A DNA stretch of 64,000 nucleotides from Aureococcus anophagefferens. Taxonomy: Eukaryota; Sar; Pelagophyceae; Pelagomonadales; Pelagomonadaceae. The notes under the pieces are model-generated. The model ran no database searches. It saw only the letters and a list, made by a program, of their open reading frames with translations, and had not been told where the DNA came from. The stretch is from contig NW_008705566.1 in NCBI RefSeq assembly GCF_000186865.1, positions 281,945 to 345,944 on the forward strand, given 5' to 3'. Both the position numbers and the translations under genes were made by a program. Below, piece by piece: positions 14,223-64,000 of the stretch (within the stretch, counting starts at the first letter, position 1; each line of letters starts with the position of its first letter).

Positions 14223-15905
14223 CTACTTCTTCTTGGCCGCGGACTTGGTGGCCTTGCCCTCCTTCTCGGACTTGGTCACCGTCTTGATGACGCCGACGGC
14301 GACCGTCTGGCGCATGTCGCGGACGGCGAAGCGGCCGAGCGGCGGGTACTCCGCGAACGACTCGACGCAGAGGGGCTTCGTGGGCGCGAGGGTGGCCATG
14401 CACGCGTCGCCGGACTTGACGAACTTGGGGTTCTCCTCGAGCACCTTGCCGGAGCGGCGGTCCATCTTCTGGTTGAGCTCCTGGAACTTGCACGCGACGT
14501 GGGCCGTGTGGCAGTCGAGCACGGGCGAGTAGCCCGCCGAGATCTGGCCGGGGTGGTTCATGATGATGACCTGGGCGAAGAAGGTGTCCGCGCCCTTGGG
14601 CGGGTCCTGCTTGGAGTCGCCGCACACGAAGCCGCGGCGGAGGTCCTTGACGGAGACGTTCTTCACGTTGAAGCCCACGTTGTCGCCGGGCACGGCCTCG
14701 GGGAGCGACTCGTGGTGCATCTCGACGGACTTGACCTCCGTGGAGAGCTGGGCCGGCGCGAACGTGACGACCATGCCGGGCTTGAGCACGCCCGTCTCGA
14801 CGCGGCCGACAGGCACGGTGCCGATGCCGCCGATCTTGTAGACGTCCTGGAGCGGGAGGCGGAGGGGCTTCTCCGTCGGGCGCTTCGGGGGGTTGCAGTT
14901 GTCGAGGGCCTCGAGGAGGTAGGGGCCCTTGTACCAGCCCATGTTCGTCGACTTGTCGATCATGTTGTCGCCCGCCCAGCCGGAGATGGGGATGAAGGGG
15001 ATCTTCATGGGCTTGTAGCCGACCTTCTTGAGGTAGCCGGACACCTCCTGCTTGATCTCCTTGTAGCGGGCCTCGCCGTACTTGACGGACACGTCGTCCA
15101 TCTTGTTGCACGCGACGATCATCTGCTTGACGCCGAGCGTGAACGCGAGGAGCGCGTGCTCGCGCGTCTGGCCGTCCTTGGAGATGCCGGCCTCGAAGCC
15201 GCCCACGGACGAGTCGATCACGAGGATCGCGACGTCCGCCTGGGACGTGCCCGTGATCATGTTCTTGATGAAGTCGCGGTGGCCGGGCGCGTCGATGACC
15301 GTGAAGTAGAACTTGGGCGACTCGAACTTCCAGAGGGCGATGTCGATCGTGATGCCGCGCTCGCGCTCGGCCTTGAGGTTGTCGAGCACCCACGCGTACT
15401 TGAAGGACGCCTTGCCGAGCTCGGCCGCCTCCTTCTCGAACTTCTCGATGGTACGCTTGTCGATGCCGCCGCACTTGTAGATCAAGTGGCCGGTGGTCGT
15501 CGACTTGCCGGCATCGACGTGGCCGATGACGACGAGGTTGATGTGAGTCTTCTCCTTAACCTATGAGCGGGGGGGGCGGTCGGCGACGGCGCGTTCCGGC
15601 GGGTTTCTGGCGAGGGGAGGATGCTCCGGACGACCAAGCGCGGGGCTCCGGACGACCGCGCCCGCGCTCGGTCGTCCGCCGCCGCGGCAGGATGGCCCGG
15701 GGCACCGGGCGATGCCGGAAGCGGCGCCCGGCGCGTCCGGGGGGCTTCTGGGGGCGGAAGGGGGTCCGTCGCCGAATCGCGGCGCCCGACGCCCGCGTTT
15801 CCGCGCAAAGACGCACGGCGCGTGGCGTGGGTGTCCGGCGGTCCCGCAGCGGTGGCGTGGGTCGCGGAGCGGCGACGGAGCGGACCGGGCGCGCGGACGC
15901 ACCAT
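14223..15905 (-). CDS. EF1A: translation elongation factor 1-alpha, copy A
   Basis: 446 residues from exon 2 (14223-15560) plus a first exon whose coding part is only the ATG (15903-15905). GTPase that brings aminoacyl-tRNA to the ribosome. Motifs are [30 protein letters not shown] and a Lys-rich tail. The junction ATG|GTGCGTCC...CTCATAG|GTTAAGGAG gives M-V-K-E-K-T-H-I-N. The same arrangement in copy B supports it. The 342 bp intron is GC-rich with CGGACGACC-type repeats shared with copy B and may hold expression signals. The protein is identical to copy B; only about three bases differ in 1338. Confidence 0.95.
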
Positions 15906-17556: not shown

Positions 17557-19241
17557 TCACTTCTTCTTGGCCGCGGACTTGGTGGCCTTGCCCTCCTTCT
17601 CGGACTTGGTCACCGTCTTGATGACGCCGACGGCGACCGTCTGGCGCATGTCGCGGACGGCGAAGCGGCCGAGCGGCGGGTACTCCGCGAACGACTCGAC
17701 GCAGAGGGGCTTCGTGGGCGCGAGGGTGGCCATGCACGCGTCGCCGGACTTGACGAACTTGGGGTTCTCCTCGAGCACCTTGCCGGAGCGGCGGTCCATC
17801 TTCTGGTTGAGCTCCTGGAACTTGCACGCGACGTGGGCCGTGTGGCAGTCGAGCACGGGCGAGTAGCCCGCCGAGATCTGGCCGGGGTGGTTCATGATGA
17901 TGACCTGGGCGAAGAAGGTGTCCGCGCCCTTGGGCGGGTCCTGCTTGGAGTCGCCGCACACGAAGCCGCGGCGGAGGTCCTTGACGGAGACGTTCTTCAC
18001 GTTGAAGCCCACGTTGTCGCCGGGCACGGCCTCGGGGAGCGACTCGTGGTGCATCTCGACGGACTTGACCTCCGTGGAGAGCTGGGCCGGCGCGAACGTG
18101 ACGACCATGCCGGGCTTGAGCACGCCCGTCTCGACGCGGCCGACGGGCACGGTGCCGATGCCGCCGATCTTGTAGACGTCCTGGAGCGGGAGGCGGAGGG
18201 GCTTCTCCGTCGGGCGCTTCGGGGGGTTGCAGTTGTCGAGGGCCTCGAGGAGGTAGGGGCCCTTGTACCAGCCCATGTTCGTCGACTTGTCGATCATGTT
18301 GTCGCCCGCCCAGCCGGAGATGGGGATGAAGGGGATCTTCATGGGCTTGTAGCCGACCTTCTTGAGGTAGCCGGACACCTCCTGCTTGATCTCCTTGTAG
18401 CGGGCCTCGCCGTACTTGACGGACACGTCGTCCATCTTGTTGCACGCGACGATCATCTGCTTGACGCCGAGCGTGAACGCGAGGAGCGCGTGCTCGCGCG
18501 TCTGGCCGTCCTTGGAGATACCGGCCTCGAAGCCGCCCACGGACGAGTCGATCACGAGGATCGCGACGTCCGCCTGGGACGTGCCCGTGATCATGTTCTT
18601 GATGAAGTCGCGGTGGCCGGGCGCGTCGATGACCGTGAAGTAGAACTTGGGCGACTCGAACTTCCAGAGGGCGATGTCGATCGTGATGCCGCGCTCGCGC
18701 TCGGCCTTGAGGTTGTCGAGCACCCACGCGTACTTGAAGGACGCCTTGCCGAGCTCGGCCGCCTCTTTCTCGAACTTCTCGATGGTACGCTTGTCGATGC
18801 CGCCGCACTTGTAGATCAAGTGGCCGGTGGTCGTCGACTTGCCGGCATCGACGTGGCCGATGACGACGAGGTTGATGTGAGTCTTCTCCTTAACCTATGA
18901 GCGGGGGGGCGGTCGGCGACGGCGCGTTCCGGGGGATTTCTGGCGAGGGGAGGATCGCCGACGCCACCGACCGCGGCTCCGGACGACCAAGCGCGGGGCT
19001 CCGGATGACCGCGCCCGCGCTCGGTCGTCCGCCGCCGCGGCAGGACGGCCCGGGGCACCGGGCGATGCCCCGAGCCGGGCGGTCGGCGATGGCAACGGGG
19101 GTTTCCGGCGAGGGGCGGATCGCCGACGCCGCCGACCGCGGCGCGGACGCGCGGCGCGTGGCGCAAGCGTCCGGAGCCGCGGCAGGATGGCGCGCGGGGC
19201 TGGGACGGCGGTGGGAGGGCCCCGGCGGAGCATCGCACCAT
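17557..19241 (-). CDS. EF1A: translation elongation factor 1-alpha, copy B
   Basis: Exon 2 is 17557-18894; exon 1 coding part is the ATG at 19239-19241, followed at once by the donor GTGCG. It encodes the same 446 residues as copy A. Visible coding differences are single synonymous changes, for example near 15191/18525 and 14811/18145. The 344 bp intron resembles that of copy A in blocks (CGGACGACC, GCCGCCGCGGCAGGA) but has diverged and rearranged more. Downstream flanks are unrelated, so the shared unit runs from the stop codon into the first intron. Confidence 0.95.
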
Positions 19242-61025: not shown

Positions 61026-64000
61026 ATGGGCCGGGGCGGCGACGCGGCGCCGCACCTGCTCAAGAAGCTGTCGGCCATCGAGGAGCCGCTGGACCTCCGC
61101 TCCTACACGGTGCTCGACGGCGACGTCTACGACCTGCGCAAGCTCGCGACGAGGCATCCCGGCGCGTTCGCCCGCGTCGACGGATACGGAAACGAGGATT
61201 GAAGCGCTCCCTTTTTAGGCGGCGACCTGGCGCTGCGCTACGCCGGCGGGCGGGACCTGAGCCGGACCTGGGCCCCCCTGCACGCCTTCAGCGACCCCAA
61301 GACCGTGCGGGCCTGGCTGTCCGCGACGCGCGTCGACGACACGCGCGTCGCCGCGCGCGTGCTCAAGAGCGTCGTGCCCGAGCCCTTCGCCGCCGGCGAG
61401 GGCGTGCGCGCGACGCTGGAGCGCGCGGACCGCGAGGCCGCGGCCTTCGACGCCGCCTGCGCGGCCGGCGCGCCGCCCGCGGCGCCGCCGGCCGCGCTCC
61501 TGGACAAGGGCTTCGCCGAGGAGCTCGCGTGCCGCGCGCGCTGGCACTTCCGCCTGCGCCGCCGGACGCTCGGCGGCTCCCTCGCCGCGGCGACCAAGGC
61601 CCCGCGCGCGCGCTGGGCCTGGATGGGCCTCGTGGTCTGCTCCTTCCTGCGTTCGTACGTCGGCTGGGTCCGGGGCTCGATCGTCGGCCTCGTCGCGCTG
61701 GCCCTCTGCGGCCAGCTCGTCGCCTTCACGGTCGCCCACGACGCGAGCCACAACGCGCTGAGCACGAACCGCCTCGTCAACGTGTTGGGCTGCTACGGCA
61801 TCCTCTGCGTGACGTCGCCGCACGAGTGGACGCTGCAGCACGTCCTGGGCCACCACCTCTCCCCGAACGTCGCCGGCGAGGACCCGGACGTCGTCCACGT
61901 GGACCGCTACAAGGCGCGCATGCTGCCCGCCTGGCTGCCCAAGTGGTGCGACGTGCTGCTCGTCTGGTCCGTCGCGGTGCCGGTAGGTCTCACGACGCTC
62001 GCGCCGCTCCGCGTGCTCTTACGGGGCGTCTACCCGGGCTCGTCCGTGCCCGCGGGCCTCGACGGCAAGGTCGTCGTCCACGTGTTGGGCCGCCTGCTCC
62101 ACCTCGGCGCCTTCTTCGCCTGGCCCTTCTTCTCGAAAGACTACTCGCTCGCGGGAGCCGCGGCGTGGGTCTTCGCGCCCGCGGCGCTCGGGTCCCTCGT
62201 CTTCATGGCCGTGACCCAGATCGCCCACCTGCTCGAGGAGACCCTGGGCGAGCAGGCGCCGACGGCGACGTTCTACGCGACGCAGATCGCCAACTCGTGC
62301 AACTTCGCGACGGATTCCGCGGTCGTCGCGCTCCTCACGGGCGGCCTCAACCAGCAGGTCGAGCACCACGCCTTCCCCACGGTGCACCACGCCCACCTGC
62401 CGGCGCTGGCGCCCATCGTCAAGGCCACCTGCGACGCGCACGGCGTGCCCTACCACGAGGCGCCGTCGATGACCGCGGGCCTCGCCAAGCACCTGGACTA
62501 CCTCGAGGCGCTCGAGCGCCGCGCGAAAGGCGGCGCGCCGGCGAAGCCGTCCACTCTCCTCGTCTTCGAGGGCACGGTGGCCCACGCGCGGCGCCGCATC
62601 GCGTCCGAGCCCGACCACGCGTTCAAGGTCCGGCGCCACGCGATGTGGTTGTTGCCGCTCGACGACGGCGACGCGATGGCGCCGCTGACGGCGGGCTGGC
62701 TCCTGTCCTGGCGGCCCGGCGACCACCTGCGGTCGCTGAAGCGGGCGCTGGCCTCGCCGGCGGACGTCGCCGACGCGGTCCGCGAGCTGTGCGCGCGCCG
62801 CGGCGGCGAGACGCCCGGCGCGGTCAAGCTGCTGTGCATGCCCCGCTACCTCGGCTACACCTTCAACCCCATCGCCGTCTACTACGTCTACGGCGCGAAG
62901 AGCGGCGACCTGTCCCACGTCGTCTTCGAGGTCAGCAACACGCCCTGGCTCGAGGAGACGCTCTACGTCCACCGCGTCGCTCCGAACGGCGCCTACGGCC
63001 CGGACGCGAAGCAGATGCACGTGTCGCCCTTCCAGCCCATGGGCCAGGCCTACGACTGGCTCGCGCCGCCGCCGTCGGCGGCCAAGGGCCTGCGGCTCGC
63101 GGTCAAGGTGTCGCGCGCGGGCGACCGCTACTTCGACGCGACGTTCGACGCCGAGGCGAAGGCGCCGCCGGCGAGTCTCGCGGCGCGGCTCCGCGCGGCG
63201 CTCGGGGCGACGCCCCAGGTCGCGGTGCTGCTCATCCACGTCCACGCGGCCGCGCTTCTGGCGAAGGGCGCCAGGTTCTACCCGCACCCGTCGGGCGTGA
63301 AGACGCCCTTCTCGCGCGCCGTCGAGGTCCTCTTCCACGGCAAGCTCTGGCTGCTCCTGCTGAGCCTCGGCCGCGCGTGCGGCTCGCCGGCGGTCGTCCT
63401 CGTCGCCGCCCTCGGCTTCGCGCGGCGCGCGGCGGCGACGCTCGGCCAGCCGTCGGGCAAGGGGCCGCCCGGCGGCGGCGCGCCGCCCGCGGCGGACGGC
63501 GGCTCCGGCGGCGGCTCCGCGGCGCCGCCGCCGGGGGGCGGCGCGGAGCCGCCGGCCGGCGGCGGCGGCGCGCCGCCGGCCGCCGAGGGCGAGTCCGACG
63601 GCAGCGAGCGGTCCTGGAGCGACCTGGGCCGCGACGGCCACCGGCGCGTCGCCGTCGTCGGCGCCGGGATCGCGGGCAGCGGCGCGGCGCTGTTGCTGCG
63701 GCGCGCGGGCGTCGACGTCACGGTCTTCGAGGCGTCCGACGCGCCCGGCGGCCACGCGATGACCGTCGCCGTGCCCCGGGCCGGCGGCGACGGCACCTGC
63801 GACGTCGACGTCGGCTTCCAGGTCTTCAACACGGCCAACTACCCGCGGCTCACGCGTCTGTTCGCCGAGCTCGGCGTCGACCACGTCGAGAGCGACATGT
63901 CGCTGAGCCTCGGCTCCGCGGGCGGCTGCTGGTCGTCGAAGCACCCCTTCGCTGGCTGTTTCGCGAGCGGGTTCTCCGTGGCCACGGTCGTCGCCGTCGC
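61026..64000 (+). CDS. cytochrome b5 - desaturase - DUF1365 - flavoprotein fusion (runs off window)
   Basis: Exon 1 is 61026-61161, exon 2 starts at 61219 and is open to the end, about 970 residues seen. Residues 25-75 are cytochrome b5 (YTVLDGDVYDLRKLATRHPGG, second haem His in APLHAFSD). The desaturase His boxes are HDASHNA (~218), LGHHLSPN (~255) and QQVEHHAFP (~425); the final Gln is typical of front-end desaturases. DUF1365 covers ~490-760 (PRYLGYTFNPIAVYYVY, VVFEVSNTPWLEE, MHVSPFQPM, KGARFYPHP). A ~65-residue Gly/Pro/Ala linker follows, then a dinucleotide-binding flavoprotein start (VAVVGAGIAGSGAALLLRRA, FEASDAPGGHAMT, VDVGFQVFNTANYPRL) as in COG2907. The GC-AG intron restores HPGGDLALRYAGG. 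Probably an ER or plastid lipid enzyme that desaturates and further modifies acyl chains. Confidence 0.9.

Follow-up and report, generated by a model that had tools for sequence, protein, structure and literature searches.

We identified a gene at the end of the window (the whole 64,000-nucleotide stretch analysed, C6:281945-345944) whose single predicted polypeptide carries b5-desaturase, UfaO-, UfaD-, UfaM- and FufM-type modules and is, with a probability that we put at about 0.75 from sequence comparison, a complete methylated furan fatty acid synthase. The predicted order is cytochrome b5, desaturase, DUF1365, COG2907-type flavoprotein, CFA-synthase-like methyltransferase and second SAM methyltransferase, and all modules lie in one open frame with one predicted splice at each end. 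The substrate would be an acyl chain held in membrane lipid. The b5-desaturase would install a cis double bond, likely omega-7 as in cis-vaccenate; the UfaM module would move a SAM methyl onto this bond to give a methyl-branched monoene; the UfaD module would desaturate the monoene, yielding a conjugated methyl diene; the UfaO module would form the furan ring with oxygen taken from O2; and the FufM module would add a second methyl to give a dimethyl furan acid. The fusion would keep the reactive diene intermediates on one protein. Methylation, diene desaturation, O2 ring closure and second methylation have been shown experimentally for separate bacterial proteins acting on phospholipid acyl chains (PMC7380195), and we infer the four corresponding steps in the alga from homology. 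The furan pathway is already known in bacteria and has been proposed for Arabidopsis (PMC10940516); what is new is a single predicted chain for every known step of the pathway, with a desaturase ahead of the other enzymes. Among the papers listed in searches of the open PMC literature, none was seen to describe the fusion or to report a gene for furan fatty acids in an alga.

All features of the gene lie on the + strand. Exon 1 (61026-61161) opens with the start codon and encodes the first half of cytochrome b5 up to HPGG, with MGRGG and b5 residues as in a related database protein, P0003. It is followed by a predicted GC-AG intron of 57 nt (61162-61218) containing an in-frame TGA at 61200-61202 that halts the frame opened at 61026, and removal of the intron restores HPGG and the reading of P0003 across the b5 junction (MGRGG...HPGG...AGGRDLSRTW). 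The remainder of cytochrome b5 and the membrane fatty acid desaturase occupy 61219-62522, the UfaO-type (DUF1365) module 62550-63380, a Gly/Pro-rich UfaO-to-UfaD linker in the same frame 63381-63641, and the UfaD-type flavoprotein module, with GAGIAG at 63660, starts at 63642 and is interrupted by the window end at 64000. A linker at the UfaO-UfaD position is also present in P0003 and P0007. The first-pass annotation of the window had placed a desaturase, DUF1365 and a flavoprotein in one frame, and Pfam finds all of them in that order in a single frame at 61221-63998 (FA_desaturase, 3.4e-32; DUF1365, 2.5e-44; NAD_binding_8, 5.6e-17; Amino_oxidase, 1.2e-10). The continuous frame that it drew from cytochrome b5 onward holds from 61219 but not from 61026, where the TGA intervenes and a separate predicted exon is needed. 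Its cytochrome b5 is likewise upheld in part: HPGG is present after removal of the predicted intron, but the Pfam Cyt-b5 match on 61026-61199 (0.0072) is below the Pfam cut-off and weak taken alone. Because the G+C content is about 72% and another forward frame is likewise stop-free in all nine stretches measured, an open frame is weak evidence by itself. Across these nine stretches, which include three linkers, third-codon G+C ranges from 0.97 to 1.00, with 1.00 in the UfaO-to-UfaD linker, which is open in all six frames. The strong profile match of each module and the third-codon G+C show that the desaturase-DUF1365-flavoprotein frame is real.

The extension of the gene was read in locus L002 (L002 position equals window position minus 60855), and positions beyond 64000 are given on the window scale. 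The frame remains open past 64000 up to a stop at 66687, so that the flavoprotein is not cut short just past the window end. The whole UfaD-type module spans 63642-64895 (Amino_oxidase, 1.2e-18, and NAD_binding_8), followed by the UfaM-type module at 65007-66269 (CMAS, 2.1e-64) and, in a frame continuous after CMAS, by the first 80 residues of the FufM-type module at 66330-66569. A methyltransferase perhaps lying beyond the window, as had been suggested earlier, is therefore found, together with the start of a second one. A predicted GT-AG intron of 200 bases (66570-66769; L002:5715-5914), a splice also read by P0002, leads to exon 3, which carries FufM on from 66770 until an N run (67073-67587) intervenes. 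This 515-base run holds part of the FufM module in the present assembly. P0002, apparently the product of the same gene in another assembly, where it lies on a 412-kb contig, shares the 3' splice and supplies much of the FufM sequence missing in the N run. Its gene model lacks the b5 start, the UfaO-UfaD linker, the flavoprotein start and part of the FufM SAM region, and for this reason P0002 was used for the 3' end only. With GTCTGTACC at the start of the predicted intron (66570-66769) and GTCTGCACC at the start of the following exon, the two edges carry a near repeat of the kind that inserted introns can leave.

The three desaturase His boxes noted in the first-pass annotation are located at 61737 (HDASH), 61839 (HVLGHH) and 62355 (QVEHH), and their His and Gln are invariant in four aligned sequences. 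The module has the HDxxH, HxxHH and QxxHH motifs of b5-fused desaturases as well as HPGG, the last depending on the predicted intron. Its nearest full-length free-standing relative among the 43 matches of a desaturase search is P0043, with 31% identity and no functional name. We take the b5 and QxxHH features to be those of front-end types, of which an omega-7 bond is presumably not the usual product, and this class assignment counts against the omega-7 role. According to a review, linoleic acid is the starting point of the furan acid skeleton in algae and plants (PMC10608786), which misfits a start from cis-vaccenate and counts against the same role. The desaturase step is proposed because the pathway needs cis-vaccenate and because of where the module sits, and it is plausible that the module supplies the double bond that is later modified. 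We consider it doubtful that the front desaturase is instead something other than the source of the first bond, with the b5 or the whole unit mainly feeding electrons to UfaO or adding a side double bond to the finished acid. The two-part desaturase-UfaO proteins P0037 and P0038 fit such a role, as does the statement in PMC7380195 that the reductant of UfaO is unknown; however, in P0025, P0026 and P0030 the desaturase adjoins UfaD-UfaM in a chain that has no UfaO, so the role is not confined to UfaO, and all three His boxes are intact. Since the desaturase of Symbiodiniaceae occurs with UfaD-UfaM without UfaO and that of P0037 and P0038 with UfaO alone, it seems to be tied to the pathway rather than to a single partner module.

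Bacterial gene clusters connect the modules to the known enzymes. We scanned named bacterial and archaeal genomes with the DUF1365 module, kept the best 80 of 540 confirmed loci and scored these, with 6-kb flanks, using the eukaryotic module profiles. Among the best 80 of 540, UfaO is accompanied by UfaD in 79 loci, by UfaM in 66 (65 at a 60-bit floor) and by a FufM-like gene in 33, and all four genes occur together in 33/80; a desaturase profile match is found in none of the 80. The loci with a FufM-like gene near UfaD-UfaO-UfaM (33/80, within L004-L083) belong to Planctomycetota, Gammaproteobacteria and others. The prevailing bacterial order is UfaD-UfaO-UfaM, in contrast to UfaO-UfaD-UfaM-FufM in the fusion. 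Fourteen loci have UfaD-UfaO only, all from alphaproteobacteria by title or lineage (13 from the Rhodobacter group, and L076, titled only Alphaproteobacteria). In four of them (L068, L075, L077 and L081), UfaO and the three next frames measure 251-288, 410-433, 187-188 and 244-247 aa, close to the 250, 402, 186 and 245 aa of R. sphaeroides RSP1090-1087 (PMC7380195). The row of L060 measures 251, 308, 184 and 244 aa, and in the remaining nine of the 14 a full RSP1090-1087-like row is not shown by our crude gene calling (which takes the longest ATG- or GTG-initiated frame and filters by third-codon G+C). The R. sphaeroides operon together with UfaM makes the 9M5 furan acid, R. palustris FufM yields 9D5, and the enzymes of the two species give mono- and dimethyl furan fatty acids (PMC7380195). 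In R. palustris, fufM (RPA0924) lies apart from RPA2569-2571 by locus number (PMC7380195). The modules are tied to the tested RSP1091, RSP1090, RSP2144 and RPA0924 through operon layout and trees, not through those sequences themselves.

The UfaO module matches DUF1365 over its whole length (profile positions 2-234 of 235, 2.5e-44). In an alignment of 59 UfaO sequences, which includes the module itself and 52 bacterial sequences (thinned from 71, nearly all beside UfaD), it keeps all 25 residues conserved in at least 93% of filled rows. The eight eukaryotic UfaOs, both desaturase-UfaO proteins among them, form one group (96, quick tree). The genome (49.05 Mb, 86 contigs) contains one DUF1365 match, in the fusion gene, which makes this gene the alga's sole known UfaO candidate. 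In Arabidopsis, the UfaO homologue is located on lipid droplets (PMC10940516; PMC12712439). The UfaD module is an FAD/NAD-binding, amine-oxidase-like flavoprotein with GxGxxG, as its Amino_oxidase and NAD_binding_8 matches show, and its profile finds the gene beside UfaO in the 79 loci counted above.

The last module is of the LIME1/coclaurine-type SAM methyltransferase kind that occurs with Ufa genes in the 33 loci, and the alga's own copy, taken from P0002, groups with the fused eukaryotic copies in a quick tree. It could instead be a coclaurine-type small-molecule N-methyltransferase, leaving the lipid product monomethylated only, a reading that we judge improbable. The best solved structure for the FufM part of P0003 is indeed a plant coclaurine N-methyltransferase (6gkv, 7.4e-51), and a Durusdinium protein is so named in databases. 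However, FufM is itself 37.87% identical to Arabidopsis LIME1 (PMC10940516), and 33 of the best 80 of 540 loci have FufM-like genes near UfaD-UfaO-UfaM, inside the 6-kb flanks. A genome-wide CMAS search in ten genomes gave 48 matches, of which 30 were taken as loci, and the sole FufM-like one among these adjoins the UfaM of its own genome. The public names 'coclaurine N-methyltransferase' (P0025, Durusdinium) and 'ufaA1' (P0030, Symbiodinium natans) each cover one module and hide the fusion.

The UfaM module bears on the nature of the product. The UfaM tree has 76 rows (109 before 66 operon rows were thinned to 33), with the alga's own module entered twice; Citrus P0036 was too short for it, and RSP2144 is absent from the trees. 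The UfaM modules of the fusion and those in the UfaD-UfaM proteins group together (99/95) on the operon-UfaM side, where one paralogue from each of five Rhodobacter-group genomes also falls. E. coli Cfa, a second CMAS protein of the alga (L102) and four bacterial paralogues split off from the UfaM side at 100/99. A second, quick tree from more cleanly cut domains (63 rows) places 31/31 eukaryotic rows together with an SH-aLRT of 91; it was rooted on the Cfa rows and is hence no new test of the split. Because the UfaM module stands with UfaM-type proteins and apart from cyclopropane synthases, a furan fatty acid is the likely product. We find it quite improbable that the chain ends at a cyclopropane or methyl-branched acid, with DUF1365 and the second methyltransferase serving otherwise. 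In favor of such an end point, the UfaM module belongs to Pfam CMAS, the nearest solved structures to the UfaM part of P0003 are CFA synthases (7qos, 9.1e-30), and some fused relatives are without UfaO; the 100/99 split and the 25 retained UfaO residues argue against it. The earlier proposal of a single-chain enzyme for an unusual fatty acid of cyclopropane, methylated or furan type is supported, and the evidence favors furan. L102 (G000 C6:1236567-1237373) is free-standing, lies in a 453-codon frame and falls with E. coli Cfa on a long branch, and it is a candidate for the true cyclopropane synthase of the same alga.

We examined eukaryotic relatives in three protein searches, each scoring about 8,000 candidates; two of them gave 35 proteins, which were scanned with five module profiles. 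A database search for the same domain order, proposed in the first-pass annotation, finds it in P0003 (2117 aa, 55% identity over 99% of the query) and in P0007 of the dinoflagellate Polarella glacialis (2154 aa, 38% identity over 93%). All five modules occur in four of the 35 proteins (P0002, the alga's own, P0003, P0007 and P0008, the last cut at its start), and UfaO-UfaD-UfaM-FufM in two (P0005 and P0006, both possibly cut). Desaturase-UfaD-UfaM-FufM without UfaO is found in 3/35 (P0023, P0025 of Durusdinium and P0026 of Effrenium), and desaturase-UfaD-UfaM, without UfaO and FufM, in 4/35 (P0028, P0029, P0030 of Symbiodinium natans and P0031). Shorter still are UfaD-UfaM-FufM (6/35) and UfaD-UfaM (13/35, with Micractinium P0014 and Citrus P0036 as those that bear an organism name). 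FufM is the sole such part in two proteins, P0034 and P0035 (a fungus and a lichen record), and the last one, P0004, is a probable chimera. The desaturase search added the two desaturase-UfaO proteins, P0037 (a transcript) and P0038. P0008, with UfaO, and P0023, without it, are near each other in the trees, and their difference could be explained by loss of the module, by its being skipped in the gene model or by alternative splicing. An assembly or gene-model artefact, in which neighbouring genes are read through in a GC-rich genome, is highly improbable: the G+C content of about 72% does ease open frames, with another forward frame stop-free, and the metagenome protein P0004 switches inside the UfaO-UfaD linker to a gene located about 318 kb off in the present genome, but the order is the same in P0003 and Polarella, P0006, whose residues we judge by appearance to be AT-rich coded, runs from UfaO to FufM in one chain, and the linkers, at 87, 37 and 20 residues, could scarcely accommodate gene ends. 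The shorter relatives (UfaD-UfaM, UfaD-UfaM-FufM, desaturase-UfaO, nearly all modules, all in one) offer stages for studying how pathway enzymes merge. Against completeness of the synthase on one chain stand the relatives without UfaO (P0023, P0025 and P0026) and those without UfaO and FufM (P0028-P0031) among the 35 scanned.

The genome contains 75 matches to the chlorophyll a/b-binding (light-harvesting) family, and the window also carries tubulin and elongation factor 1A genes, which together indicate a photosynthetic eukaryote, an alga. Two elongation factor 1A frames (14226-15560 and 17560-18894, both on the - strand, 3.3 kb apart) differ at 3 of 1335 bases, and the exact match stops 1 and 15 bases outside the frames, a pattern that may stem from gene conversion or from recent copying. 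Algae, fish, corals and other animals contain furan fatty acids, which reportedly scavenge radicals, and a review names 'marine bacteria or algae' as their source in such animals (PMC10608786). The dinoflagellate Prorocentrum cordatum releases a lactone said to resemble furan fatty acids, for which lipoxygenases are credited (PMC9230497), and one phytoplankton-exudate formula may be a furan acid (PMC3853721). The gene and its relatives are candidates for the genes behind an algal origin of furan fatty acids in the sea, and with every known step in one algal gene the question of the source becomes testable by expressing one coding sequence. In Chlamydomonas, the separate genes CFA1, CFA2 and a DUF1365 gene need SAK1 for singlet-oxygen induction, and another of that paper's tables calls CFA2 a coclaurine N-methyltransferase (PMC4067076); a furan synthase in algae would link furan lipids to this singlet-oxygen response. 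More tentatively, at somewhat less than even odds, one protein may take a saturated acyl chain all the way to the dimethyl furan acid, with the b5 also feeding electrons to UfaO, and such chains of dinoflagellates and GC-rich algae may be the source for fish, mussels and corals.

Compared with known systems, the proposed synthase comprises the same four enzyme kinds, and the same functional set, as R. sphaeroides UfaM, UfaD (RSP1091) and UfaO (RSP1090) and as R. palustris RPA2569-2571 and FufM (PMC7380195). As that source describes them, the bacterial enzymes are separate proteins without a desaturase part, and UfaM there starts from membrane cis-vaccenate (PMC7380195). E. coli Cfa shares its Pfam family with the UfaM and FufM modules, but it falls on the opposite side of the tree, and the 2.4 kb around cfa contain no COG2907-type or DUF1365 gene. 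In Arabidopsis, AtUFAMD1 (AT3G23510) joins UfaD- and UfaM-like parts in one protein, and AtUFAO1 (AT1G30130) and AtFUFM1/LIME1 (AT4G33110) are the UfaO and FufM homologues; as given in PMC10940516, this set consists of three separate putative enzymes without a desaturase part. The Symbiodiniaceae proteins P0025, P0026 and P0030 have a b5-desaturase fused to UfaD-UfaM as here, but they are without the UfaO module, and P0030 is without FufM too. The order from b5-desaturase to FufM is the same as here in P0003 and Polarella P0007, both known from database records alone.
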